This document shows, piece after piece, positions 5,753 to 59,467 of a DNA stretch of 64,000 nt (positions are counted from its first letter, which is position 1; every line of letters begins with the position of its first letter). The position numbers were made by a program, and so were the translations under genes. This DNA comes from Betaproteobacteria bacterium HGW-Betaproteobacteria-1 (GTDB taxonomy: Bacteria > Pseudomonadota > Gammaproteobacteria > Burkholderiales > Methylophilaceae), in NCBI GenBank assembly GCA_002842435.1, contig PHCX01000005.1, forward strand, positions 124,001 to 188,000, read 5' to 3'. The notes below the pieces were generated by a model. The model searched no databases and was not told the origin of the DNA. It was given only the letters and a program-made list of their open reading frames with translations.

Positions 5753-8038
5753 GTGAATGGGCGCCTCATCAAACCGGCGGCGTCTGAAGTCAACCCGAAA
5801 AAAGCCCGTCTGGTGCGAGAGGCATGGTGGCTGGTGCTGGTGACGACCGGTATATTTCTCGCTTTGATTCTGTTCACCTATCATCGCGATGATCCTTCAT
5901 GGTCACATAGCGCCAGCGATAGCGCCATTATTCACAATGCCGGTGGCGCACTGGGAGCCTGGTTCTCAGACATCCTGCTCTATCTGTTCGGCTTCTCGGC
6001 CTGGTGGTTTGTCGTTCTTAGCTTTTATGCAATGTGGCTGGTTTATCTCAAGCTGGAGGCGGCCACCAACGAGCAGCCGATGCTGATCATCAATATCGCT
6101 GGTTTCGGCATGCTGTTGTTGGCATCAGCTACCCTGGAGGCTGGCCATCTCATGAGTCTGCCGGCTGATCTGCCCTTGTCGCCGGCCAGGGGAGGTTTGA
6201 TCGGCACGGTGTTTGATGGTTTTTTGCAGGGCCTGCTCGGGTTTGCCGGTTCCAGTCTGACGCTGTTGCTGCTGTTCGCCGTCGGCTTCAGCCTGTTCAC
6301 CGGCTGGTCCTGGATCATGATGACGGAAAAACTGGGCGCTGCGCTGGAGTGGACATATCACACAGCAATTGACCAGTTCCAGGCCTGGCAGGATAGAAAA
6401 GCCGGCAAACTGGCTGAGCAGTTGCGTACCGAATATGTGGCGAGCGAACGCAAACGTACGGAAGACCGCCCGCCGGTAGAAATCGTCACACCGGCGCTGG
6501 AAATCCCCAAGAGCGAGCGCGTGCAGAAGGAGCGTCAGGTTTCGCTGTTCGAAGGCATGCCGGATACCTCCTTGCCGCCGCTACATCTGCTGGATGAAGC
6601 CAAGGGCGAGATCGAGGTGCAATCGGCCGAGACATTGGAATTCACCTCGCGTCTGATCGAACGCAAGTTGATGGATTTCGGTATCGAGGTCAAGGTGCTG
6701 ACCGCCTTGCCCGGTCCGGTCATCACCCGCTACGAACTTGAGCCTGCGCCAGGTGTGAAGGGCAGTCAGGTGACCAATCTGGTCAAGGACCTGGCGCGTG
6801 CTCTGTCGGTGGTTAGCGTACGTCTGGTGGAGACGATTCCGGGCAAGACCTGCATGGGGCTGGAGATTCCCAACCCCAAGCGGCAGATCGTCTTTCTTTC
6901 GGAGATTCTCGGTTCGCAGGTCTATCACGACATGCATTCGCCGCTGGCCATCGCGCTCGGCAAGGATATCGCAGGCAAGCCGGTGGTCGCCGACCTGGCC
7001 AAGATGCCGCATGTACTGGTGGCAGGGACCACCGGTTCCGGTAAATCGGTCGCCATCAATGCCATGATCCTGAGTCTGGTTTACAAGGCCGAACCCAGTC
7101 AGGTGCGCCTGATTCTGGTCGATCCCAAGATGCTCGAACTCTCGGTTTATGAAGGCATTCCGCATCTGTTGGCACCGGTGGTCACCGATATGCGACAGGC
7201 TGCCAGTGCGCTGACATGGTGTGTGGCCGAGATGGAACGACGCTACAAGTTGATGTCGGTGCTGGGCGTGCGCAACCTGGCCGGTTACAACCAGAAGATC
7301 CGCGAGGCGGAAAAAGCCGAGAACCGGATGCCCAATCCGTTCTCGCTGACACCGGACGAACCGGAGCCTTTGGATGAAATGCCGACCATCGTCGTCGTTA
7401 TTGACGAACTGGCCGACCTCATGATGGTGGTCGGCAAGAAGGTCGAGGAATTGATCGCACGCCTGGCGCAGAAGGCACGCGCTTGTGGCATCCATCTGGT
7501 GCTGGCGACGCAGCGGCCGTCGGTCGACGTCATCACCGGCCTGATCAAGGCCAATATTCCGACCCGCATCGCCTTCCAGGTTTCGAGCAAGATCGATTCA
7601 CGCACCATTCTTGACCAGATGGGTGCCGAGGCGTTGCTCGGGCAGGGCGACATGCTTTACCAGCCGCCGGGCACGAGCAACCCGCAGCGCATTCACGGTG
7701 CCTTTGTTTCCGACCAGGAAGTGCATCGCGTGGTCGATTATCTGAAGACGCTGGGTGAACCAAATTACATCGAAGGCATTCTTACCGGAGCAACGGAAGA
7801 GAACGGCGAGAATGGATTCAGTGCCGGCGAAGGCGGCGGTGAGGCTGATCCGCTTTATGATGATGCAGTCGCTATTGTTTTGAAGACGCGCCGCGCTTCG
7901 ATCTCCTCCGTGCAGCGGCAACTTCGCATCGGCTATAACCGTGCCGCCCGCCTGATCGAGGATATGGAGCGGGCTGGTCTGGTTTCTGCCATGCAGAGCA
8001 ATGGCAATCGCGAAGTGCTTGCTCCCAAATCAGAATGA
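5753..8038 (+). CDS. ftsK: DNA translocase FtsK
   Basis: About 761 residues. FtsK is anchored in the septal membrane and pumps DNA toward dif to resolve chromosome dimers. Four to five N-terminal membrane helices (about 20-190) are followed by a short linker and the RecA-like motor: Walker A GTTGSGKS near residue 425, Walker [12 protein letters not shown] near 545, then the C-terminal winged-helix gamma domain ([22 protein letters not shown] region, last 70 residues). The linker is far shorter than in E. coli, as is usual in betaproteobacteria. The start is uncertain: GTG at 5753 is chosen because the promoter lies close upstream; GTG 5708 would add 15 residues. lolA follows within 20 bp. Confidence 0.95.
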
Positions 8039-8054
8039 ATTTGACGGAAACTCC

Positions 8055-8663
8055 ATGCGCCAACTTGTTATTACCTTGTTTTTTCTGCTGCCGCTGGCAG
8101 CCCATGCGGCCGGCACGCAACGCCTGACGCAGTTCTTCGACAAGACCACTTCGCTGCGCGCGCAGTTCGAGCAAGTGGTGACCGACAATCGCGGCCAGAA
8201 GGTGCAGGAGGTCAGTGGCACCATGCAGATATTGCGTCCCGGAAAATTTCGCTGGGATTACCGCCAGCCCTATGAGCAGGAGATCGTCGGCGACGGTACG
8301 CGCATCTGGCTCTATGACCCGGAACTGAATCAGGTGACAGTACGCAACATGAGCCTGGCCATCGGTTCCAGTCCGGCCGCATTGCTGGCAGGCAGCAAGG
8401 AGGTGGAAAAGAATTTTACGCTACAGGATATGAAGTCCAGTGATGGCCTGGAATGGGTGACAGCCACCCCGAAAGAAGCCGATAGCGGCTTTGATCAGGT
8501 CAGGCTTGGTTTCGGCAAGCTGGGCTTGGAAAGAATGGAGCTGCAGGATAGCTACGGCAATCTCACCGCGATTCGTTTTTCATCGGTGGAAACCAATCCC
8601 GGTCTTGGTCAGCATATCTTCATGTTCAAGCCGCCGGCAGGTGCCGATATCGTCGGCGAATAA
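8055..8663 (+). CDS. lolA: outer-membrane lipoprotein carrier protein LolA
   Basis: 202 residues with a signal peptide (MRQLVITLFFLLPLAAHA, cleavage near 18). LolA is the periplasmic chaperone that takes lipoproteins from LolCDE to LolB at the outer membrane. The FRWDYRQPYEQEIVGDG and LYDPELNQVTV strands, and the late FSSVETNPGL segment, are typical of the half-barrel. The upstream in-frame stretch overlapping ftsK is not a signal peptide, so the ATG at 8055 is preferred. It is co-transcribed with ftsK (16 bp gap) and ends at a strong terminator. In many betaproteobacteria rarA and serS come next; here about 6 kb is inserted between. Confidence 0.94.
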   Translation: MRQLVITLFFLLPLAAHAAGTQRLTQFFDKTTSLRAQFEQVVTDNRGQKVQEVSGTMQILRPGKFRWDYRQPYEQEIVGDGTRIWLYDPELNQVTVRNMSLAIGSSPAALLAGSKEVEKNFTLQDMKSSDGLEWVTATPKEADSGFDQVRLGFGKLGLERMELQDSYGNLTAIRFSSVETNPGLGQHIFMFKPPAGADIVGE

Positions 8664-8693: not shown

Positions 8694-8734
8694 ACGGCCA
8701 ATCTGTTGCAAAATTGCAACAGATTGGCCGTTTT
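8694..8734 (+). terminator. rho-independent terminator after lolA
   Basis: A perfect 16-bp stem (8694-8709 with 8716-8731) and 6-nt loop, followed by TTTT and a pyrimidine-rich tail. It sits 31 bp after the lolA stop. An A-rich stretch on the left side would also allow some termination on the minus strand. Confidence 0.88.
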
Positions 8735-8817: not shown

Positions 8818-10152
8818 ATGCTGATGCAACGTCTTCAGACGCTGGTTCTTGCTTGTCTGCTCACAACCTTCTCACTAATGGCGCTGGCCGACGAAACGCT
8901 TGACCAAGCCGCCGAACTCATCAAACAAAAGAACTTCAAGCCAGCCTACGAATTGTTGGAACCACTGGAATCAGAACGTGCCGGTGAGGTCGACTACGAT
9001 TATCTGCTAGGCGTGGCAGCCATCGAGAGTGGTCAAGTCTCGCGCGGCGTTTTCGCGCTGGAGCGCGTGTTGGCCCAGCAACCAAATAACATGAATGCCC
9101 GTGCCATGATTGCCAAGGGTTACTTCAGAGGAGGCGAAGCGGAAAATGCTCGTGCTGAATTCCAGAATATTCTCAGTCAGAATCCCGATGCGGATCTGGC
9201 GCAGTTGATTGAACGTAACATGTTGTCGGTGGATAAGGCGACCGGTCAGACTACCACTTTTGCTGCCTACATCGACGGTGGTTGGGGTTTTGACAGCAAC
9301 ATCAATAGTGCTACATCAAACTCCACAGTTTCCGCATTTATTCCCGGCTTGGGTTTGATTGATCTGACGCTAAATGATGCCTCTCGTGAACAATCGAGTA
9401 AATATCTCAGCTTGTCCGCTGGCGCATCTTTTCGTGCGCCATTATCGAAGAATCTGAGTTTGTTCGGCTCTGCGCAGGGTAGTGCCCGTAGCAACTGGAA
9501 TGAGAGCGACTTCGATCCGAGCTATGTCGACTTTAGCCTCGGTCTGACTTACAAGAAATTTATCGATACTTATACTGTGGCATTGCAACGCAACAATTTT
9601 AACGTAGACAGTGACCGTTTTAGAGAGTCTCACGGCGTTGCGCTCCAGTGGCAACGTCAAATCGACGACCAGAATCAACTCACGGTTTATGCCAATACCG
9701 CAGATTTGAATTACCCTGATACGAAAGTGCGCGATGCCCAGAGGACATTGGGTGGCGTTGGTTGGGGGCATGCCTTCACAGGTGACAAGGCACCGGTCGT
9801 TTTTGTCACGGGTTATTATGGGAAAGAGGATGTAGACGATTCGACATTCGATTTTCTGAGTCACGACATTTATGGAGCACGTGTAGCAGTTCAGTCTGTG
9901 CTGCATTACAAACTGGTGGCTTATGCCAATGCCAGTTACGAACTACGTGAGCATGATGAGCGGGATCCGGCTTTCCTGAAGACGCGCAATGATGATCAGT
10001 TCGATTTTGCCATTGGCCTGCGTTATCTGCCCATGCCCGGCTGGACCATCCGTCCGCAGCTCAGTTATCTGGACAATGATTCCAATATAGGGCTGTTTGA
10101 TTTTGATCGGACAGTGTTGTCAGTTAATTTCCGTAAAGATTTCAATTGGTAG
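8818..10152 (+). CDS. TPR plus outer-membrane beta-barrel protein (Slam/T11SS-like architecture)
   Basis: 444 residues: signal peptide to about residue 24 (LMALA), a periplasmic TPR-like helical part (25-145; LIKQKNFKPAYELLEPLE, then repeats ending QNPDADLAQ), then about 290 residues of alternating beta strands ending in an aromatic residue (FNW), the usual signal of an outer-membrane barrel. A short TPR followed by a C-terminal barrel is the plan of Slam/type XI secretion translocators and of DUF560-like proteins. Homology is not proven from sequence reading alone; a porin-like outer-membrane TPR protein is the alternative. AT-rich DNA and a GGGGA ribosome site precede the start. The FecR-domain gene follows after 37 bp, which suggests an exporter/cargo pair. 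Confidence 0.6.
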   Translation: MLMQRLQTLVLACLLTTFSLMALADETLDQAAELIKQKNFKPAYELLEPLESERAGEVDYDYLLGVAAIESGQVSRGVFALERVLAQQPNNMNARAMIAKGYFRGGEAENARAEFQNILSQNPDADLAQLIERNMLSVDKATGQTTTFAAYIDGGWGFDSNINSATSNSTVSAFIPGLGLIDLTLNDASREQSSKYLSLSAGASFRAPLSKNLSLFGSAQGSARSNWNESDFDPSYVDFSLGLTYKKFIDTYTVALQRNNFNVDSDRFRESHGVALQWQRQIDDQNQLTVYANTADLNYPDTKVRDAQRTLGGVGWGHAFTGDKAPVVFVTGYYGKEDVDDSTFDFLSHDIYGARVAVQSVLHYKLVAYANASYELREHDERDPAFLKTRNDDQFDFAIGLRYLPMPGWTIRPQLSYLDNDSNIGLFDFDRTVLSVNFRKDFNW

Positions 10153-10189
10153 CCCGTTGCCGTTTGCGCAGGTTACGAGGAGCTCAATC

Positions 10190-11410
10190 ATGAATAACGA
10201 AAAATCTTTTAGACTCAACTCTCAGGCACTGGTTGCGTTGGCGATTTCTGCCGCGTTCCCGGTCACTTCCTTTGCTGCAGCCGGCCGCGTCGAGTTTGCT
10301 ATCGGGGGAGTGACGGCAATCAATGTCAACGGTGCGGCACGGCCGCTGAGCAAGGGTGCTGATATCAATTCAGGTGACACCATCAAGACCGCTGATGGTC
10401 GTGTGCAGGTCAGGTTCACGGATGGTGGTTATATGTCCCTGCAGCCCAACACCGAGTTTGTGGTGGAAAACTACAATTACGACGGCAAACAGGACGGTAG
10501 CGAGCGTGGATTTTTTCGCCTGGTGGAAGGCGGTTTGCGTGCGATCACTGGCATCGTCGGCCGCAACAACCGCCCAGCCTATCGTGTGGCGACCCCTGTG
10601 GCGACCATCGGCATCCGCGGGTCCGAATTCCTGGCTGAGCACCGTGGTCAAAAACTACGGACGCGGGTCATAGGCGGTTCGATCTATATCGAGAACGAAT
10701 TCGGCGATCTGATTCTGTTCAAGGGGCAGAGCGCAGAGGCCGAAGAAGGCAAGAAGCCGCAATATAGTGAAGAAGAGTCCGGTGTGCAGGCCAAGGGGCC
10801 TGATGGAGGCAATCCTGAAACTGGCAAGAATGAATCGGAACAGGAGCGCGAGGACAGCACCATCTTTGCCGTGAATGAGCAATATGACGATGAAGGCCGG
10901 TCGACAGGATTGGGCGACACTCCGGTGACTTTGGCGCATGTGATTGCTGAATATAGTGCCCAGAATGCGCTTGGTTATTACATCTTGGATTTTGACAAGA
11001 GTTCCGCCATCGCTGGCTTGAACGAGGGTAAATTCGAATACGGTTACCTCGACGTCTATTTCGGCGATTACACGGTATCTAACTCATTCGATATTTCGGC
11101 GAAAAACAATTCTACTTTAGCAACAGATACCGAAACATTTTATGGCTCAGGGAGTTTGACCTCTGCTGGTGACTTGAGTATTTCCGGAGCCTCAACTGGT
11201 TCGATATGTGGGAGCGGTTGCACATTCAATGGTGCTGGTGCATTGTCAGGTGCCAAGGCTGAAACCGCTACAATTAATTACACGATTAATGGTGTGAGTT
11301 TTGAGCATGGCTCACCTACAGTAACGGGTACTGGTGTTTACAATGCCTACGGTATTCAGGCAGAAGATGGTGCTGGTGCCGTACTGTATGGCAATGAAAT
11401 TGGACTCTAG
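10190..11410 (+). CDS. secreted FecR-domain protein with C-terminal beta-rich region
   Basis: 406 residues. A signal peptide (about 1-29, ending TSFAA) leads to a FecR domain (about 32-170): GDTIKTADGRVQVRFTDGG, then PVATIGIRGSEF and VIGGSIYIEN. A charged Glu/Lys linker follows (175-240), then a Ser/Thr/Gly/Asn-rich region (240-406) with short strands such as YLDVYFGDYTVSNSFDIS and TVTGTGVYNAYGI, resembling the small C-terminal barrels of surface-exposed proteins. It is not a classical iron-sensing anti-sigma factor: there is no cytoplasmic helix, sigma factor or receptor nearby. ATG 10190 has a GAGGAG site. It is probably co-transcribed with, and possibly exported by, the preceding barrel protein. 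The stop overlaps the convergent glycosyltransferase gene by 4 bp. Confidence 0.7.
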   Translation: MNNEKSFRLNSQALVALAISAAFPVTSFAAAGRVEFAIGGVTAINVNGAARPLSKGADINSGDTIKTADGRVQVRFTDGGYMSLQPNTEFVVENYNYDGKQDGSERGFFRLVEGGLRAITGIVGRNNRPAYRVATPVATIGIRGSEFLAEHRGQKLRTRVIGGSIYIENEFGDLILFKGQSAEAEEGKKPQYSEEESGVQAKGPDGGNPETGKNESEQEREDSTIFAVNEQYDDEGRSTGLGDTPVTLAHVIAEYSAQNALGYYILDFDKSSAIAGLNEGKFEYGYLDVYFGDYTVSNSFDISAKNNSTLATDTETFYGSGSLTSAGDLSISGASTGSICGSGCTFNGAGALSGAKAETATINYTINGVSFEHGSPTVTGTGVYNAYGIQAEDGAGAVLYGNEIGL

Positions 11411-12294
11411 GGTTCTTCAGTATTTGCTGCTCTGAGTCCGAGAATCAGATTTAAGGCTTCCTGTTCGGTTTCGAACAGGAAGCCTTTTTCATATCCGGAG
11501 ACAATTTCAGTGTGACCTCCATCGTTGAAGCAGACGATGGGTAATTTACTGGCAATGGCTTCAGCAACTTCGATGGAGAACGCATCCTTGTTATGAGCTG
11601 AAGTCCTGTAATAGAAGCAGTCGAGCAATGCATGTGTCGCAGGAACCTTGTGATGCGGAACTGCAGGAAGTAACTCAATATTCGCCTGATTGCCCAGCCA
11701 GGTAGCAAGACAGGTGCCACCAAAAATTTTCACTTGGATATCGTTTTGCGCGAGTTCGCGGTAGATATCGATATCATGATAATGGTGCTTGCCGATGCTG
11801 TCTGCCCCGATGCGGCCTACGGTAAAGGGCAGGTTTCTTTTTCTTTCTTGTCGGACTACAGGCTTGAATTTTGCAGGGTTTGGCAGCGGGTAATGAATCT
11901 CCCCCGGCAGGCCTATCGTATCCCTGATCATCTCTGAGATATAGTTGATTTCGACTTCGCGTTTTCCATCCAGAACAAGCCGATGCATGCTCCGGTAAAA
12001 TGCATCCTGATCAAACTGGTTATGCATAAGTACTATGCGCTTGAATTTTACCTGGTCATACCAGCTGCCGATGGTCGTGCTTGAACCATATATATAGAGT
12101 GATCCGCCACTCGGCGCTACCTCCTGATAGGCCTTGATGTTTCTGATTGGGTAAACCGCAAGATCTGTGTGCGGCATTTGCTCGCACCACAGAAAAACCT
12201 CCGCATTGTCGTGAAGTCGTAGATACATGTCGATTGCGCACCAGTCGTCGCCATTTGCGTTGATGAATGGTGCAATGATGTGTATCGTCTCCAT
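11407..12294 (-). CDS. glycosyltransferase, group 1-like (GT-B)
   Basis: 295 residues, cytosolic, no membrane helix. The C-terminal half has the GT-B/GT4 style: VKIFGG, a helix-loop resembling a donor-site region, and the Glu-rich motif DAFSIEVAEAIASKLPIVCFNDGGHTEIV, in which the E-x7-E-like acidic residues bind the nucleotide sugar. The N-terminal acceptor domain is short, so the protein is smaller than typical GT4 enzymes (350-400 aa). The donor and acceptor are unknown. It starts 28 bp from the divergent GT41 gene and overlaps the end of the FecR-domain gene by 4 bp, so it belongs to the same accessory block. Modification of the neighbouring secreted protein is an inference only. Confidence 0.65.
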   Translation of the reverse strand: METIHIIAPFINANGDDWCAIDMYLRLHDNAEVFLWCEQMPHTDLAVYPIRNIKAYQEVAPSGGSLYIYGSSTTIGSWYDQVKFKRIVLMHNQFDQDAFYRSMHRLVLDGKREVEINYISEMIRDTIGLPGEIHYPLPNPAKFKPVVRQERKRNLPFTVGRIGADSIGKHHYHDIDIYRELAQNDIQVKIFGGTCLATWLGNQANIELLPAVPHHKVPATHALLDCFYYRTSAHNKDAFSIEVAEAIASKLPIVCFNDGGHTEIVSGYEKGFLFETEQEALNLILGLRAANTEEP

Positions 12295-12322
12295 GACGTA
12301 TATTCAACTCCCTGATTGAACG

Positions 12323-14539
12323 ATGAGTGTGTCGGAAGAAGTCTACCGCAAAATCCAGCATTACCTTCAACTTGCCCAATACAAGGAAGCTGAGCGTACC
12401 TGCCTTTTTGAACTGGGCAAACTGGCAGAGAAAGATGGCTATCTGCTTTTTCTGCTTGGTACGACTGCACGCATGCTGCATAAGAAACAGGCGGCCTCGG
12501 TTGCCTTTAATGCAGCATTGAGTACTGACCAGAATAATATTGACTACCTTCAGGCCTCAGCCTCTGCTCGCGAGGCGTTGGGTGATCATGAAGCGGCATA
12601 TCGCCTGATGGCGCGAGTAATCGAGCTTGCTCCGCATGATGTCAATGCGCGAGCCAATCTGGCGGTGGCGCTGGATCGTCTGAATCGTGGCGAAGAAGCT
12701 CTGGATGTTTATGCTGCTGTGTTGCAGCTAGATGCCAGGCAGAGAACAGCCAATCTCAATTACGGGACCTTGTTGTATCGAATGGGACGCAAACGCGAGG
12801 CGCTTGTCCACAACCGTCAGGCGCATGTCAGATTGCCGGAAGTGTTTGGCACCCTATATAACCTGGTCGATACACTGATTGCCAATTTCGAGTATCAGGA
12901 GGCGCTGGATTATTGTGAGGAAGGCCTGATTCAGCGACCACGTCACGCCCACCTGATGATGAAAAAGGGGATTGCACTGGGCGGCCTTTCCAGACGTCAG
13001 GAATCGCTGGCGGCGCTGTCATCGGCAAGGATCATGCAGCCGGGCGTCATACGTGATTATCTGCCGGAGACCAGACACCTGCCCGCTTCCATCAGCATCT
13101 ATCTTGATGGCGAAATTCTGGAGTACGAGGCTCGCTATACCGAACAGACATCCTGTTATTGGCAGTACCGGGGCGATTATCTGCAAAAACTCCACCATGC
13201 CATTCAGGACAAGCCTTACCGGAATCGTGCTTTGTCCGGTATTGAGAATGCTTTCAGATTGCTTTCTTTGGATATCCCCGCCGTAGATAGACTCAAGCTG
13301 ATGCGAAACACTGGCAGTGTGGTGTCGGATTTTGCATGGCGTTATGCACTTGAGCCTTTTCAATTTCACCGCGCAGACCATGTCGTAATTCGTATCGGTT
13401 ATCTTTCCCCGGATTTTCGCGAACATGCAACAGCGATTCTGGGCCGGCAGATTTATGGAACGCACGACAGATCGAGGTTCAAAATCTACGGGTATTCCCT
13501 GTACAACGCAAAGCAGACTGATCGCTATCGGACTGAAATCGAGAATACCGTCGATGTGTTTCGTGATGTATCGGCGATGCATGCAGCTGATATTGCCAAA
13601 TTGATTCATGCGGATGAAGTTGACATATTGATAGACCTCGCCGGTTACAGCGCGTTCTGCCGCACGGAAGTCATGGCAATGCGTCCGGCGCCTGTCCAGA
13701 TGCAATATCTTGGTTTTCCCGGCACCATGGGCGCGGATTTCATCGATTACGCATTGATCGACAAGACGATCTGTCCGGACGGGAAACAGCAGGAGTGGCA
13801 CGAGCAGGTGATTCGCCTGCCGCACACACTTTATCCCTATGACAATGAAGCGAACAATGCGCCTACAAAACTCACACGGACCGATTTCAATTTGCCGGAG
13901 GACGCCTTTGTTTTTTGTTGTTTGAACAACAGCTACAAGATCGAGCCGCAGATTTTCGAGTGCTGGATGAGGATATTGAAGGCGGTGCCAAACAGCGTAC
14001 TGTGGCTCTTGGGCAAGGGACTGGATGTGCAGGACAATCTCGAGCGTGAGGCCGAGATGTGTGATGTGGATAAATCGCGTCTGGTGTTTACCGGGCGCGT
14101 GTCGCTGGAGCAGCATTTGCCGCGCTATCAGCTGGCCGACCTGTTTCTGGACACCTATTGGCACAACGCCCACACTACGGCGGCAGAAGCCTTGTGGCAA
14201 GGATTGCCGTTACTGACTATCCACGGCGAGGTAGCTTCGGCGCGTGGCTCTTCCATCATTCTGCATGCGCTGGAGATGCCGGAGCTGGTGACGCGGGATT
14301 TTGACGAATACGAGCACCTCGCCGTCCATTACGCCACGCATCCGGCCGAATATGCCGCCATGCGGGAGAAATTGCGGGCCAAACGGTATACTGCACCCAT
14401 GTACAACACCAAGCTGACCGTGAAGCATATCGAACGCGCCTACCGCATGGCTTGGGAGCGTCACCAGGCCGGCATGCCGCCAGCGGCGTTCGATGTGCCG
14501 GAGATCGACGACCTTGAATTGCGAAAGAGTATCCATTGA
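12323..14539 (+). CDS. TPR-containing GT41 glycosyltransferase (OGT/SPINDLY-like)
   Basis: 738 residues. TPR-type helical repeats fill about 1-245, a linker follows, and the rest is the GT41 catalytic region of O-GlcNAc transferase-like enzymes, which move a sugar from a UDP or GDP donor to Ser/Thr or Asn of proteins. Key positions are conserved: His368 in SPDFREHAT (counterpart of OGT His498), Lys539 in YKIEPQ (OGT Lys842) and His617-Thr-Thr (the OGT HTT motif that holds the donor). RPAPVQMQYLGFPGTMG is the classic central motif. No signal peptide; cytosolic. The last codon overlaps the TTG start of rarA. The protein substrate is unknown; the co-located FecR-domain protein, rich in Ser/Thr/Asn, is a plausible candidate. 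Confidence 0.85.
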   Translation: MSVSEEVYRKIQHYLQLAQYKEAERTCLFELGKLAEKDGYLLFLLGTTARMLHKKQAASVAFNAALSTDQNNIDYLQASASAREALGDHEAAYRLMARVIELAPHDVNARANLAVALDRLNRGEEALDVYAAVLQLDARQRTANLNYGTLLYRMGRKREALVHNRQAHVRLPEVFGTLYNLVDTLIANFEYQEALDYCEEGLIQRPRHAHLMMKKGIALGGLSRRQESLAALSSARIMQPGVIRDYLPETRHLPASISIYLDGEILEYEARYTEQTSCYWQYRGDYLQKLHHAIQDKPYRNRALSGIENAFRLLSLDIPAVDRLKLMRNTGSVVSDFAWRYALEPFQFHRADHVVIRIGYLSPDFREHATAILGRQIYGTHDRSRFKIYGYSLYNAKQTDRYRTEIENTVDVFRDVSAMHAADIAKLIHADEVDILIDLAGYSAFCRTEVMAMRPAPVQMQYLGFPGTMGADFIDYALIDKTICPDGKQQEWHEQVIRLPHTLYPYDNEANNAPTKLTRTDFNLPEDAFVFCCLNNSYKIEPQIFECWMRILKAVPNSVLWLLGKGLDVQDNLEREAEMCDVDKSRLVFTGRVSLEQHLPRYQLADLFLDTYWHNAHTTAAEALWQGLPLLTIHGEVASARGSSIILHALEMPELVTRDFDEYEHLAVHYATHPAEYAAMREKLRAKRYTAPMYNTKLTVKHIERAYRMAWERHQAGMPPAAFDVPEIDDLELRKSIH

Positions 14540-15855
14540 GTGACCTGTTCGAACCTGTGAGCCCGCAGGCGCCTTTGGCCGAAAAATTGCGGCCGAAATC
14601 GCTGGAAGAGGTGGTGGGACAGTCGCATCTGCTGGGCGATGGCAAACCGTTGAAGCTGGCTTTCAGCTCCGGCAAGCTGCCTTCCATGATCCTGTGGGGC
14701 CCGCCGGGTGTGGGCAAGACCACGCTGGCGCGGCTCATCGCCAACACGGCCGATGCTGAATTCATCCCCATTTCTGCTGTACTGTCCGGTATCAAGGATA
14801 TCCGCGAGGCAGTCGAGCGCGCCGAGCACACGCTACAGCAGTCCGGCCGCAAGACCATCCTGTTCGTCGATGAGGTGCACCGTTTCAACAAGGGCCAGCA
14901 GGACGCTTTCCTGCCGTTCGTCGAAAGCGGCCTCATCACCTTCATCGGCGCGACGACCGAGAACCCTTCATTTGAGGTCAATAGCGCGCTCTTGAGCCGG
15001 GCGCAGGTGTTCGTGCTGAATGCCCTGTCCGAGGATGAGCTGGGGCAGTTACTGCAACGCGCGCAGGATGTGATGCAAGCGCCGTCGATGACGGCGGAGG
15101 TGCGCGAGCAGGTGTTGGCTTATGCTGACGGTGACGCCCGCCGTTTGCTCAATTTCCTCGAAGGCCTGTTCAATGCGGCCATGACTGCCGGTGTCGGCGA
15201 AATCGACGAGGTTTTCCTGCAATCGACCATGGCGAGCAAGTTGCGCCGTTTCGACAAGGGCGGTGAGGCCTTCTACGACCAGATATCCGCACTGCATAAA
15301 TCGGTGCGCGGTTCCAATCCTGATGCTGCTCTCTACTGGTTTCTGCGCATGCTGGACGGTGGTGCCGACCCGCTCTATCTCGGTCGCCGTATCATCCGCA
15401 TGGCGGTCGAGGATATCGGCATCGCTGACCCGCGCGCGCAGACCATGGCGCTGGAAGCCTGCCAGATCTACGAGCGTCTCGGTTCGCCGGAAGGCGAGCT
15501 GGCGCTATCCAACGCCGTCATCTATCTGGCCGTCGCGCCCAAGAGCAATGCCGCCTATATGGCCTACAACCAAGCCAAGGCCTTCGTCGCGTCCGACAAG
15601 TCGCGACCTGTGCCCTTGCATCTGCGCAATGCGCCGACCAAACTGATGAAAGCGCTGGATTACGGCAAGGAATACCGTTACGCCCATCATGAGCCCGGCG
15701 CTTATGCCGCTGGCGAGACTTATCTGCCGGACGAAATGCCGCCTGTCAGCTTTTATGAGCCCACGCCCAGAGGTTTGGAGGGTAAAATCGGGGAAAAACT
15801 CGCACACCTGCGCGAATTGGACCGTCAGGCCAAGAAGGTGAACGGTAAAAAATAA
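14536..15855 (+). CDS. rarA: replication-associated recombination protein RarA (MgsA), AAA+ ATPase
   Basis: 439 residues. RarA acts at stalled forks and interacts with SSB. Walker A is GPPGVGKTT (from residue 55), Walker B LFVDEVHRF near 110-118, sensor FIGATTENPSFEVN near 138-150, arginine-finger region ALLSRAQVF, then the C-terminal tetramerisation domain with RHPDA-like GSNPDAALYW and the MAVEDIGIADPRA helix. The likely start is a TTG at 14536 that overlaps the stop of the GT41 gene (TTGA), so translation may be coupled; the next residues SDLFEP match known N-termini. serS follows after a long inverted repeat. Confidence 0.94.
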   Translation: MSDLFEPVSPQAPLAEKLRPKSLEEVVGQSHLLGDGKPLKLAFSSGKLPSMILWGPPGVGKTTLARLIANTADAEFIPISAVLSGIKDIREAVERAEHTLQQSGRKTILFVDEVHRFNKGQQDAFLPFVESGLITFIGATTENPSFEVNSALLSRAQVFVLNALSEDELGQLLQRAQDVMQAPSMTAEVREQVLAYADGDARRLLNFLEGLFNAAMTAGVGEIDEVFLQSTMASKLRRFDKGGEAFYDQISALHKSVRGSNPDAALYWFLRMLDGGADPLYLGRRIIRMAVEDIGIADPRAQTMALEACQIYERLGSPEGELALSNAVIYLAVAPKSNAAYMAYNQAKAFVASDKSRPVPLHLRNAPTKLMKALDYGKEYRYAHHEPGAYAAGETYLPDEMPPVSFYEPTPRGLEGKIGEKLAHLRELDRQAKKVNGKK

Positions 15856-16006: not shown

Positions 16007-17293
<1,287 letters not shown>

Positions 17294-17336
17294 GCCTGCT
17301 TCGGCAAGGGAGTAAGCGAATGTCAGCGAGGCGCTA

Positions 17337-18977
17337 ATGTCGGGTTATCAGGAACTTGCCCTGTTGCTGTTGTTGGCAGCAGTGATTGGCGCGATTGCCG
17401 TTCGCTTGCGTCAGCCACTGATCGTGGCTTTCATACTGGTCGGTATGCTGGCCGGTCCTTCCGGTTTTGGGCTGGTGCATGCGCACAGCGAGATCGGTTT
17501 GTTGGCGGAACTGGGCATCACCATCCTGCTGTTTGTCGTCGGCCTCAAGCTCGATCTGCATCTGGTGCGCAATCTCGGGCCGGTAGCGCTGGCGACCGGT
17601 CTGGGACAACTGGCGTTTACCGTATTCTTCGGTTATCTGCTGGCGCGCGGTATCGGTATCTCGCATATCACGGCGCTCTATGTCGCGATCGCGCTGACCT
17701 TCTCCAGCACCATCATCATCGTCAAGCTGCTTTCCGACAAGCGCGAGATCGATTCCCTGCACGGGCGTATTTCCATGGGTTTTCTCATCGTGCAGGATAT
17801 CGCCGTGGTCATCGCCATGGTGCTGATGAGCGCCTATGGTCTGGGCACGGGCGAGGGCGGCGTCGGCATGGTGGCGATGATGCTGGTTTTGAAGATGACT
17901 GCCGTGCTAGCTGTACTTGCACTGATGATGCGCTATGTGTTGCCGCACTTGCTGCACCTGCTGGCCAAATCCGGCGAACTGCTGCTGGTGTTCGCCATCG
18001 CCTGGGGCGCTGCGCTGGCCACTCTCGGCGATGCTGCTGGTTTCAGCAAGGAGGTCGGTGCCTTTCTCGCCGGTTTTTCACTGGCATCCACCAATTATCG
18101 TGAGGCCATCAGTTCGCGCCTGACTTCGTTGCGGGATTTCCTGCTGTTGTTCTTTTTTATCGATCTTGGCGCCAAACTGGAACTGGGTTCACTTGGCACC
18201 AACATTCCGGAGGCGGCGGCGCTCTCGCTGTTCGTGCTGATAGGCAATCCGCTCATTGTGCTGGCGATCATGGGTTACATGGGCTACCGCAAACGTACCG
18301 GGTTTCTGGCAGGGCTGACGGTGGCGCAGATCAGCGAGTTCTCGATCGTCTTCGCGGCGCTCGGTGTCAGCATGGGTCATATCGACCTCAATGCGGTAGG
18401 GCTTATCACGCTGGTTGGTCTGGTCACTATCACGGCCTCGACCTATATGATTCTCTACTCGCAGCCGCTGTACGATTTCTGCAAACCCTGGCTGACTGTG
18501 TTCGAACGCAAGAAACCGTTCCGTGAAATGGCCTTCGAGGGGAGCCGCAAGCTGGAAACGGAACCTGATGTGGTGATATTCGGCATGGGTCGTTTTGGCA
18601 GCCGTCTCGCGAATGAATTGCAGGCGCAGGGTTACCACGTGCTTGGCGTCGATTTCGACCCGACCGTAGCACGTTCATATCAGCACCGCGATGTGCCTGT
18701 CAGGTTCGGCGATGCAGAAGATCCGGTGCTGGTAGAAACACTCCCTCTATCTTCAACTGCCTGGGTGGTCAGCACTATCGCCGACCTCAATCTCAACCTT
18801 TCGCTTTACAAGGCTTTGCGCCATCATGGCTATCAGGGCAAGGTAGCCATGACGGCGCATCTGGCCGGCGATGTCGGCCGGTTGAAGCGAGCCGGTGTTA
18901 CGCGTGTGCTACAGCCGTTCGAGGACGCCGCCGATTTCGCCGCCAAGACTCTGTTTGAAGATAGCCCGAAGGAATAA
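17337..18977 (+). CDS. CPA2-family cation:proton antiporter with TrkA-N domain (Kef/YbaL-like)
   Basis: 546 residues. About 12 membrane helices (1-385) form a Na+/H+-exchanger fold, including the unwound-helix region GFLIVQDIAVV and the GAFLAGFSLA segment. A cytosolic Rossmann RCK/TrkA-N domain occupies 405-535, with GMGRFG as the nucleotide loop and D-VDFDPTVA after the second strand. Kef-type systems export K+ in exchange for H+ and are gated by glutathione adducts or nucleotides; which ion this one carries cannot be read. The gene directly precedes a Usp gene (4 bp), and a second CPA2 gene lies convergent on the other side of the Usp pair. Confidence 0.88.
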   Translation: MSGYQELALLLLLAAVIGAIAVRLRQPLIVAFILVGMLAGPSGFGLVHAHSEIGLLAELGITILLFVVGLKLDLHLVRNLGPVALATGLGQLAFTVFFGYLLARGIGISHITALYVAIALTFSSTIIIVKLLSDKREIDSLHGRISMGFLIVQDIAVVIAMVLMSAYGLGTGEGGVGMVAMMLVLKMTAVLAVLALMMRYVLPHLLHLLAKSGELLLVFAIAWGAALATLGDAAGFSKEVGAFLAGFSLASTNYREAISSRLTSLRDFLLLFFFIDLGAKLELGSLGTNIPEAAALSLFVLIGNPLIVLAIMGYMGYRKRTGFLAGLTVAQISEFSIVFAALGVSMGHIDLNAVGLITLVGLVTITASTYMILYSQPLYDFCKPWLTVFERKKPFREMAFEGSRKLETEPDVVIFGMGRFGSRLANELQAQGYHVLGVDFDPTVARSYQHRDVPVRFGDAEDPVLVETLPLSSTAWVVSTIADLNLNLSLYKALRHHGYQGKVAMTAHLAGDVGRLKRAGVTRVLQPFEDAADFAAKTLFEDSPKE

Positions 18978-18981
18978 AAAC

Positions 18982-19854
18982 ATGACCGATTTTTCACGTA
19001 TTTTGCTGGCGACCGACTTTTCTGAACGTAGCGAGAACGCGGCGCAACGCGTGCTGCTGCTGGAGTCGGCAGGCGTGAAGGAATTGCGGCTGCTGCATGT
19101 CCTCTCGGGGACCTTGCTGGATGAACTCAAGCATCTGGTATCAAAGGGTGTCAGTGCGCGCTTGCGTGAGGCAATGCAGCAAAAACTGATAGAGCAGGCA
19201 ACCAAACTGCAAACTGCGGCGGACCTGAATGTGGAGTCCAGCCTTGAGATCGGAAGGCCGCATGCGGTCATCATTCAGCAGGGCAAGGAAACTGACAGCC
19301 TGATTGTTGTCGGTGCCCATGCCAGTGCAGTGCGCGACTGGGTGCAGGGTTCCATGCTCGAGCGTTTGCTCGGCGGTAGCCAACAGCCCATGCTGGTCGT
19401 CAGGCAGCCTGCCAACACTCCATATCGCCGCGTGTTGGTGCCGGTGGACTTTTCGCCTTGTTCCAGCGCCGCCGTTGAAGCTGCGATGAAACTGGCGCCG
19501 CAGGCCGAGATCACATTGCTTCATGTTTCTGCATTGCCATTCGAAAGCAAGTTGCGCTTTGCCGGTATTTCAGAGGCTGAGATGACTGAATACCGGCTCA
19601 CTTGCCGGCAAGGGGCAGAGCGTGAGATGGATAGTTTCATGCAAGGGCTGACAATGCATTCGAAACCCCTTGTCAGTCGGCTGGAATATGGCAATGCGCC
19701 GGAAGTCATCCTGGAAATGGTAGATCAAGAGGCTAGTGACCTGATCGTCATGGGGCGCTATGGAAAATCCGGTATCGGGCAGATGCTGCTGGGCAGCGTG
19801 ACTGAATATGTGGCGACGACCAGTGACCGTGACATCATGGTGGTCGGTCTTTGA
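18982..19854 (+). CDS. tandem universal stress protein (two UspA domains)
   Basis: 290 residues with two UspA domains (about 3-145 and 150-290). The second has the ATP-binding motif G-2x-G-9x-G-S (GRYGKSGIGQMLLGS), so it probably binds ATP; in the first (VVGAHASAVRDWVQGS) the motif is degenerate. Both domains begin with the DFS strand-loop (ILLATDFSE, VLVPVDFSP). It starts 4 bp after the antiporter stop and runs into the next Usp gene, so the three form an operon. Usp proteins often sense nucleotide or stress status; coupling to the adjacent Kef-like antiporter is inferred from gene order. Confidence 0.9.
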   Translation: MTDFSRILLATDFSERSENAAQRVLLLESAGVKELRLLHVLSGTLLDELKHLVSKGVSARLREAMQQKLIEQATKLQTAADLNVESSLEIGRPHAVIIQQGKETDSLIVVGAHASAVRDWVQGSMLERLLGGSQQPMLVVRQPANTPYRRVLVPVDFSPCSSAAVEAAMKLAPQAEITLLHVSALPFESKLRFAGISEAEMTEYRLTCRQGAEREMDSFMQGLTMHSKPLVSRLEYGNAPEVILEMVDQEASDLIVMGRYGKSGIGQMLLGSVTEYVATTSDRDIMVVGL

Positions 19855-24038: not shown

Positions 24039-24128
24039 GGAGAGGTGGCAGAGTGGTTGAATGTACCTGACTCGAAATCAGGCATACGTGCAAGCGTATC
24101 GAGGGTTCGAATCCCTCCCTCTCCGCCA
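24039..24128 (+). tRNA. tRNA-Ser (anticodon CGA)
   Basis: 90 nt including the encoded CCA (24126-24128). The acceptor stem GGAGAGG (24039-24045) pairs with CCTCTCC (24118-24124); the anticodon arm CCTGA-CTCGAAA-TCAGG places CGA at 34-36, reading codon UCG. A long variable arm (CATACGTG-CAA-G-CGTATC) confirms a class II serine tRNA, and GGGTTCGAATCCC is the T arm. A TAAAAT -10-like element at 24023-24028 lies just upstream. Confidence 0.97.
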
Positions 24129-59104: not shown

Positions 59105-59467
59105 GGGGCCGACCCGGTTTCGACGTGGGTTGCAAAGCAGTGCAGGGCATACCGAGGGTTCAGGTTTCCTCGTAAATCCATCTGAAAAAGTATAGTCGCA
59201 AACGACGAAACTTACGCTCTAGCCGCTTAATCCCGGCTGGACGCTGCACCGAAGGGTCTCTCGGTCGGGTGGGCAACCACAGCAGCGTCATATAGAGAGA
59301 CTCGTGTTGTATCGGGTTACTTGATACAACATTAAATCCAAGGTGACTCGCTTCACATTCGCTTGCTCGTTGGTGGATGTGCGGTTAAATCAAACAACAC
59401 AGCTAAGTATGTAGAACTGTCTGTGGAGGACTTGCGGACGCGGGTTCGATTCCCGCCGGCTCCACCA
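59105..59467 (+). ncRNA. ssrA: transfer-messenger RNA (tmRNA)
   Basis: 363 nt with encoded CCA. The tRNA-like end pairs GGGGCCG (59105-59111) with CGGCTCC (59457-59463), and the T arm is GCGGGTTCGATTCCCGC. The resume codon GCA is at 59198 and the tag open frame (59198-59230) encodes ANDETYALAA and TAA; adding the charged alanine gives AANDETYALAA. One-piece type. It releases ribosomes from broken messages with SmpB. Its last 18 bp are repeated at 59637-59654. Confidence 0.97.

Follow-up and report, generated by a model that had tools for sequence, protein, structure and literature searches.

A predicted type XI secretion pair with a FecR-domain cargo, linked to GT4 and GT41 glycosyltransferase genes in Methylophilaceae and other Proteobacteria

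Introduction

Type XI secretion systems (T11SS) with TbpBBD-type cargo, such as Slam1/2, NilB and HrpB, place a protein made of tetratricopeptide repeats (TPRs) and a SlipAM/DUF560 outer-membrane barrel beside a protein that is exported by Sec and ends in an eight-stranded barrel (PMC8406197, PMC12282271). TbpB, LbpB, HpuA and fHbp are Slam cargo, and hemophilin is of the T11SS-1B type (PMC8406197). Glycosylation of Pls and other T11SS cargo has been raised and not settled (PMC12282271). Here we analyse a locus of the same plan at positions 8818 to 14539 of a 64,000-nucleotide stretch (hereafter the window) of contig PHCX01000005.1 from Betaproteobacteria bacterium HGW-Betaproteobacteria-1, a member of the Methylophilaceae. 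Four intact open reading frames (ORFs) lie there between lolA, which ends at 8663, and rarA, which starts at 14536; they encode a SlipAM-family translocator, a FecR-domain protein, a GT4-type glycosyltransferase and a GT41 enzyme. The first two genes have the T11SS arrangement, with a predicted cargo that is non-lipidated as in hemophilin/HrpC (PMC8406197, PMC12282271). Unlike the cargo of the known systems, this one begins with a FecR/retention-like domain, and the term "FecR" is absent from the main text of the 2025 cargo survey (PMC12282271). The hosts also differ, being environmental methylotrophs and other Proteobacteria, and the pair has GT4 and GT41 genes linked to it.

The HMW1C-like enzyme of the ngt-agt locus belongs to the GT41 family. 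In Actinobacillus pleuropneumoniae this locus joins it to a second transferase, an alpha-6-glucosyltransferase; the enzyme is of the N-linked N-glycosyltransferase (NGT) type, the locus holds no adhesin or transporter and its genes are co-transcribed (PMC5303269), whereas the glycosyltransferase genes studied here are opposed. HMW1A/HMW1B/HMW1C of Haemophilus influenzae combine an exported surface protein, a dedicated outer-membrane translocator and a cytoplasmic GT41 enzyme, but the translocator is of the two-partner type Vb and HMW1C is an N-glycosyltransferase with an AAD fold (PMC3983070), in contrast to the T11SS translocator and TPR-bearing, OGT-type GT41 of the present locus. GtfA/GtfB of the serine-rich-repeat adhesins pair an active transferase with a partner that acts as a chaperone for the exported protein (PMC6973325); they are Gram-positive, use accessory Sec export and carry a DUF1975 domain, and the likeness is an analogy. 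FlmG of Caulobacter unites TPRs, which bind the substrate, with a GT-B domain and performs O-glycosylation in the cytoplasm before export, but it acts on flagellins with pseudaminic acid and involves no T11SS (PMC7591256).

T11SS and barrel-type cargo are already known. The combination of a FecR-domain cargo and linked GT4 and GT41 genes appears to be undescribed, and no account of it was found in the literature searched, supplements not covered. We favour, at a probability of roughly 0.6, the account that a T11SS pair is linked here to GT4 and GT41 enzymes that glycosylate its cargo. Homology, predicted folds and linkage make it very probable that the first two genes form a T11SS pair, with the FecR protein as a non-lipidated cargo bound for the surface or the medium. 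From linkage and enzyme families we infer, at about even odds, that GT4 and GT41 glycosylate this cargo before Sec export. The locus would provide a translocator-cargo pair from environmental methylotrophs in which one can ask whether T11SS cargo is glycosylated, and its retention-type N-terminus would suggest how a non-lipidated T11SS cargo might stay attached.

A T11SS-type translocator and its linkage to a FecR-domain protein

The first gene (8818..10152, forward strand) encodes a 444-residue protein matched by Pfam SlipAM (Surface lipoprotein assembly modifier, DUF560; E=3.7e-13, 50.1 bits, cut-off 22) and TPR_19 (4.6e-08). SlipAM was matched at E<=0.001 by 40 of 45 aligned translocator proteins, the window's included. 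The narrower TPR_Slam model (PF24575) fell under its cut-off at E=0.055, and one of the 45 aligned proteins reached 5.5e-06. An AlphaFold2 model built from 45 sequences (mean predicted local distance difference test score, pLDDT, 93.9) has seven N-terminal helices, the first of which takes in the signal peptide, followed by 14 long strands. TPRs occupy about residues 40-141 and the 14-strand barrel residues 147-443, up to a C-terminal ...FNW. The best solved fits were CymA (Z 22.2) and OmpG (Z 21.4), along with further porin-like barrels and with TPR domains; no solved Slam stood among the matches listed by two fold searches. By family and predicted plan the first gene product is a T11SS (Slam/DUF560) outer-membrane protein, in agreement with the Slam/type XI-like plan proposed in a first-pass annotation of the window.

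Linkage was scored in 79 loci gathered by translocator alignment alone, without reference to FecR (the best 80 of 105 confirmed stretches). A pair was counted when a FecR domain lay on the same strand no more than 700 bases after the translocator, and fragments were scored too. A FecR protein comes next after 67 of 82 translocator ORFs, corresponding to 66 of the 79 loci. The 13 loci without a FecR protein all follow ftsK-lolA; rarA lies downstream in 12 of them, and L109 is cut by a contig end. A contig search with the cargo's own sequence gave 16 pattern matches, none of which was confirmed. By record titles the loci come from Methylotenera, Methylobacillus, Methylovorus, Methylophilus, Azospira, Dechloromonas, Azonexus, Propionivibrio, Polaromonas and "Gammaproteobacteria". 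Hosts of the gene set include many bacteria of soil and water. The pair spans Beta- and Gammaproteobacteria, and it sits at different chromosomal sites: outside Methylophilaceae, judged by eye, the setting comprises dihydrofolate-reductase-like and decarboxylase-like genes in Rhodocyclaceae and cytochrome/sulfur-oxidation-like genes in Polaromonas. Among 150 genomes of the family searched at E<1e-30, the FecR protein occurs in 21, all of them among the 25 with the translocator, and this holds even where the two genes are unlinked (Fisher p ~6e-22, with relatedness ignored and the threshold picked after seeing the data).

Neighbouring genes within 6-6.5 kb were clustered and the largest families compared. 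Five of them recur in more than one lineage: the four cassette families and one of AMP-binding-like proteins. No TonB or TonB-receptor gene was recognised by eye among representatives of the largest recurrent families. The AMP-binding-like family (five loci, 7 proteins, 6 of them downstream; Pfam AMP-binding at 1e-5 to 2e-5, under cut-off) is a possible fifth, optional member of the cassette. PaaK/CapK-like by eye, it follows the cargo in L090 (12884-15126), L100 (13052-14038), L103 (3133-4488) and L113 (12800-16949, three copies); in L090 a methyltransferase-like gene stands between it and the cargo. In L085, one of the loci lacking a FecR protein, endonuclease/phosphatase-family-like and phospholipase-D-like genes (by eye) lie between translocator and rarA.

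A predicted cargo-type barrel at the C-terminus of the FecR protein

The second gene (10190..11410, forward strand) encodes the FecR-domain protein of 406 residues, the predicted T11SS cargo by its Pfam FecR match (2.2e-13) and its linkage. The ATG at 10190 is the likely start, and an upstream TTG is not favoured. The AlphaFold2 input comprised 49 proteins, the window's and 48 relatives. In the resulting model (mean pLDDT 81.9, predicted TM-score 0.51), the FecR domain is followed by a poorly predicted linker at about residues 195-250 and by eight C-terminal strands at 260-391, with pLDDT block means of 76-95 up to residue 390. The predicted eight-strand barrel (residues 258-391, 10961..11362) is a putative T11SS targeting domain. 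The top match of the cargo in a VIA-align search against the PDB was 4ayn, the C-terminal barrel of fHbp (Z 12.1, root-mean-square deviation 2.3, 114 residues aligned), and other Z scores were 11.3 for TbpB, 11.2 for HphA and 10.6 for HpuA. Among the 50 fold matches listed, 44 are fHbp, TbpB, LbpB, HpuA or hemophilin (many entries of few proteins), two are NHBA, three Ail and one 5ix9. The export reading gains strength from this predicted eight-strand end of the FecR protein, a type of barrel characteristic of Slam/T11SS cargo.

Profile matches were obtained in part of the cargo family, in lists open to E=10. NCBIfam slam_lipo matched 10 of 49 cargo proteins (best 1.5e-9) and Pfam TbpB_B_D three of 49 (best 2.1e-6, above cut-off). 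The matches are C-terminal in the three proteins with coordinates, L095 (374-510), L151 (373-505) and L148 (377-460). Neither profile matched eight other proteins of one scan or 19 of the 20 proteins of two further scans. A C-terminal hidden Markov model (HMM) built from all members finds 57 of 59, which is circular. When trained on Methylophilaceae, the HMM found 39 of 54 held-out proteins, and when trained on Polaromonas 28 of 47; both found none of 15 other FecR proteins. This held-out test left out four rows, three tandem second cargos carrying the barrel and one FecR fragment.

Several points weigh against a cargo-type barrel. Ail, a true eight-strand membrane barrel, fits at Z 11.4 and ties with the cargo barrels, so that the fold alone is no proof. 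A count of hydrophobic strand faces did not separate a soluble from a membrane barrel. With Foldseek alone, the whole cargo chain gave nothing at E<=0.001, TbpB coming first at 1.2e-3, and TbpB_B_D and slam_lipo both failed to match the cargo of the window itself. The fit of Ail and the undecided strand faces would suit a reading in which the C-terminal part is a small outer-membrane barrel, the Slam-like protein a porin of unrelated role and the FecR protein not exported. We consider this very unlikely in view of the 44 cargo-type entries against three of Ail among the fold matches listed, the profile matches at the barrel position in the three relatives where they were placed, and the presence of a SlipAM partner gene at 66 of 79 loci. 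The first-pass annotation had described a secreted protein with a Ser/Thr/Asn-rich C-terminus. The region concerned (residues 192-406; S+T 19.5%, N 6.0%) is largely a predicted beta-barrel and not a disordered tail.

Additional FecR proteins were observed around some pairs. A second, mostly short (~230-280 residues) FecR protein, which the barrel profile does not match, lies directly 5' of the translocator in L096, L099-L102, L106-L108, L111, L112, L116, L126 and L133. A tandem second cargo gene with the same barrel is present in the Polaromonas loci L117, L118 and L123, and L100, from a Propionivibrio metagenome-assembled genome, has two translocator-cargo pairs in tandem (9977-12669 and 16379-19111).

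Signal peptide and FecR domain of the cargo

The cargo starts with a Sec-type signal peptide, recognised by eye as of the cleavable type (residues 1-29, 10190..10276, ending in ...TSFA). A lipobox pattern was found in one of 67 relatives and is absent from the window cargo. The FecR domain follows at residues 32-169 (10283..10696) and is the only domain above the Pfam cut-off. The NCBIfam profile retention_LapA matched 48 of 49 cargo proteins under its cut-off of 50 bits (28 bits for the window, best 42.2 bits, 8.4e-11). Compared by itself with PDB sequences, the cargo had no hit even at E up to 1, and a cargo profile matched 5ix9, the anchoring domain of an antifreeze protein, at E=8e-5. The same structure was matched by fold (Z 10.3, 75 residues, 25% identity). 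The FecR domain appears related to the retention/anchoring module of large adhesins.

In type 1 and type Vb systems, retention modules keep adhesins anchored in the outer membrane, and LapG cleaves at a two-alanine scissile bond (PMC13090378). A T11SS version of such anchoring would be new. The LapG site motif is [TPAS]AAG. Release of the cargo by LapG was dropped as a candidate because this site is not enriched in cargo linkers ([TPAS]AAG in 1 of 57 versus 1.5 expected; AA in 28 versus 25.8 expected), although the window's genome encodes a LapG-like (Peptidase_C93) protein at G000:C3:496540-496878.

The name of the domain, together with a separate FecR regulator found near TbpB/Slam genes elsewhere (PMC11233812), might instead point to an iron-type anti-sigma regulator or envelope sensor that is not exported. 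A FecR anti-sigma regulator has a membrane segment, an anti-sigma part at a cytoplasmic N-terminus and a sigma factor as partner. Such a role is very unlikely, given the signal peptide, the lack of any other domain above cut-off, a C-terminal part predicted to form a cargo-type barrel and a scan of six more proteins of the window (FtsK, LolA, SlipAM, GT4, GT41 and RarA) in which no sigma factor was found.

GT4 and GT41 genes linked to the pair

The third gene (11407..12294, reverse strand), convergent with the cargo gene, encodes a GT4-type GT-B glycosyltransferase of 295 residues (Pfam Glycos_transf_1, 2.4e-12). Its acid pair D/E-x7-E is kept in 16 of 16 aligned proteins, the first member being Asp in the window. 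The fourth gene (12323..14539, forward strand) encodes a 738-residue GT41 enzyme with N-terminal TPRs (Pfam Glyco_transf_41, 1.7e-82). Residues H368, K539 and 617-619, which we take to be the catalytic His, the UDP (uridine diphosphate)-binding Lys and the HTT motif, are all present, and the intact catalytic residues noted at first pass are thus confirmed for the window enzyme. In a phmmer search of the PDB this protein matched OGT, XcOGT and SPINDLY structures; 58 PDB sequences were matched at E<=0.001, and not one bears the name NGT or HMW1C. The equivalog profile for HMW1C-type NGT gave 26.1 bits against a cut-off of 1000. Judged by sequence, the window GT41 is of OGT/SPINDLY type and not of HMW1C type. 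The window's genome carries a second GT41 elsewhere, in another part of the GT41 tree.

Among the 67 pairs, 13 have GT4 and GT41 nearby, 12 GT41 only and 42 neither, in a neighbour count that misses L101, where the GT41 ORF begins before the cargo end, and in which the first pair of L100, L105 and L151 are doubtful. In all 13 four-gene loci GT4 is reversed and upstream of GT41, as in the window; a second cargo in L117, L118 and L123 and AMP-binding-like genes in L113 are placed between them, and in L102 the GT41 gene is cut by a contig end. L118 is from Polaromonas JS666, and L079, from Methylovorus sp. MM2, has the pair with a GT41 gene. Order and orientation recur at different sites in Methylophilaceae, Polaromonas and Dechloromonas, as well as in one further Rhodocyclaceae record and one from the Burkholderiales. 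Conservation of the neighbourhood in relatives, which the first-pass annotation had put forward as a check, was found also far from lolA-rarA, around a barrel protein that belongs to the SlipAM/DUF560 family. Where 6 kb are available on both sides (39 pairs), a strong GT41 match lies downstream in 14 and upstream in none, and GT4 downstream in 9 and upstream in none. GT4 at E<=1e-10 was found in only three of the 150 family genomes (the window's own, G064 and G012), each time in the cassette. GT4 and GT41 are linked to the pair beyond chance.

The GT41 enzymes of the cassette do not form a single clade. The tree contains Methylophilaceae (5 rows, support 100/99), Polaromonas (9 rows, 100/100) and other cassette lineages and needs 6 label changes, at least 2 of them forced, compared to a mean of 19.2 in 500 shuffles; a cassette-specific clade was therefore rejected, and GT41 joined or left the cassette more than once. 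The labels are noisy, since the "non-cassette" L198 is identical to the cassette enzyme of L095 and L151 is a wrong-frame ORF. The active-site His and Lys are kept in the five Methylophilaceae cassette enzymes. Those of L100, L101, L116 and L121 also keep His and Lys and have NGGTT or NGATT in place of N-x-HTT.

We propose that in the cytoplasm the TPR-bearing GT41 would bind and select the FecR protein, much as the TPRs of FlmG bind flagellins, and add or present a first sugar, and that GT4 would add a sugar, giving one or more in all. Sec would then export the FecR protein. The Slam-like protein, through its TPRs and 14-strand barrel, would recognise the C-terminal barrel of the FecR protein and move the cargo on to the surface of the cell or into the medium, the FecR domain being a variable N-terminal 'effector' part. 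We infer every one of these steps of action. The suggestion made at first pass, that the four genes make, sugar-coat and export a surface protein, is in this way only partly supported: the export half gains from the predicted cargo barrel, and the putative sugar half has linkage above chance.

The evidence that weighs against glycosylation of the cargo comes from both the loci and the proteins. A GT41 gene is missing nearby from 42 of the 67 pairs, 13 of which have less than 3.5 kb of sequence remaining. All nine Polaromonas cassette GT41s (L117-L120, L123, L127, L135, L137, L138) lack the catalytic His, the Lys and also the TT of HTT, with the acid pair of the neighbouring GT4 retained; on sequence grounds these GT41s are likely pseudo-glycosyltransferases. 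Cargo sequon density shows no difference between pairs with and without GT41 (1.38 vs 1.37 per 100 residues, n=21 and 35, p=0.77), and neither does S+T content (0.222 vs 0.203, p=0.11). Both groups have somewhat more sequons than shuffled sequence (88 vs 61.9 with GT41, 154 vs 123.7 without). In the absence of a group difference, sequons and S/T content were rejected as markers of glycosylation targets. Long Thr-rich (poly-Thr) linkers occur in the Polaromonas loci L125, L128 and L129, where no glycosyltransferase was found, which speaks against a simple mucin-like reading.

These observations would be explained if the T11SS pair is real and GT4 and GT41 act on flagellin, pili, lipopolysaccharide or exopolysaccharide, being neighbours for other reasons. 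Some adjacency is expected, as GT41 is widespread across the order (64 of 120 genomes); the convergent GT4 gene is not co-transcribed with the cargo; and other genes also follow the cargo, AMP-binding-like in five loci and methyltransferase-like in one. This explanation deserves serious weight and is nevertheless somewhat improbable, in that it leaves unexplained the downstream bias of both genes, the confinement of GT4 to the cassette within the family and the recurrence of one order and orientation in several lineages at different sites. Glycosylation of the cargo remains a plausible reading and the one that we favour. In Polaromonas, by analogy, GT4 and the pseudo-GT41 might work like GtfA/GtfB. 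A fuller scheme, in which T11SS exports the non-lipidated cargo C-terminus first, the FecR domain, as a relative of the LapA/ice-adhesin retention fold, keeps the protein on the cell by forming a folded plug on the periplasmic side of the pore, and an active GT4 with a TPR-GT41 selector (a GtfB-like pseudo-enzyme in Polaromonas) carries out O-glycosylation beforehand, is speculative and rather unlikely as a whole.

The lolA-rarA junction and features of the locus

RarA was used to search six genomes of the genus, the window's own included. In three of the five others (G014, G045 and G033) rarA directly follows lolA, with 20, 130 and 21 bases respectively between the last lolA sense codon and the rarA start; the four-gene set therefore sits exactly in that junction, and the first-pass placement of four extra genes between lolA and rarA holds. 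G064 has the same four genes split over two contigs, and in G055 a contig end falls inside the translocator gene. In the wider family, 20 neighbourhoods were fetched and compared with the window's genes. Within the limits of the contigs, every genus fetched other than g9 has its translocator between lolA and rarA. It is followed by the cargo in g1, g2, g6, g7, g11, g13 and g16, and at another place in g9; GT41 comes after them in g1, g2, g13 and g16, as does GT4 in g1 and g13, the g13 set being divided between two contigs. The FecR gene of g19 and g22 is distant or on another contig, as in G048, where the translocator is near 1.70 Mb and FecR near 2.50 Mb. Decaying translocator copies were seen at G076:C2:171999-172673 (remnants with stops) and in G105:C15 (one stop). 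In L066/L081, from Methylobacillus glycogenes, the FecR gene and ftsK are each read as two ORFs.

The flanks are lolA (8001..8663, forward strand; Pfam LolA, 1.3e-48) and rarA (14536..15855, forward strand; Pfam MgsA_C, 4.3e-64), whose TTG start shares 4 bases with the GT41 stop. A terminator-like hairpin of 17 pairs with a loop of 4 and a T-rich tail (8694..8731, forward strand) lies 3' of lolA. It has the longest stem of the 8 terminator-like sites found in the window (5.9 expected by shuffle) and suggests that the cassette has its own transcription start. Another, of 15 pairs (11453..11486, forward strand), lies directly 3' of the cargo gene, within the 3' end of the GT4 gene. A single operon of four genes was ruled out because the GT-B gene is convergent with the FecR gene. 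The cassette has a GC content of 47-55%, lower than the ~57-60% of its near flanks, and the 2.5 Mb genome has one SlipAM match. L076 (Methylophilaceae bacterium UBA7525), the closest record that bears a name, has FtsK in common at 98%, in keeping with a Methylophilaceae host. Elsewhere in the window, a tRNA-Ser(CGA) gene (24039-24128) and a tmRNA gene (59105-59467; tag ANDETYALAA) are both ordinary.

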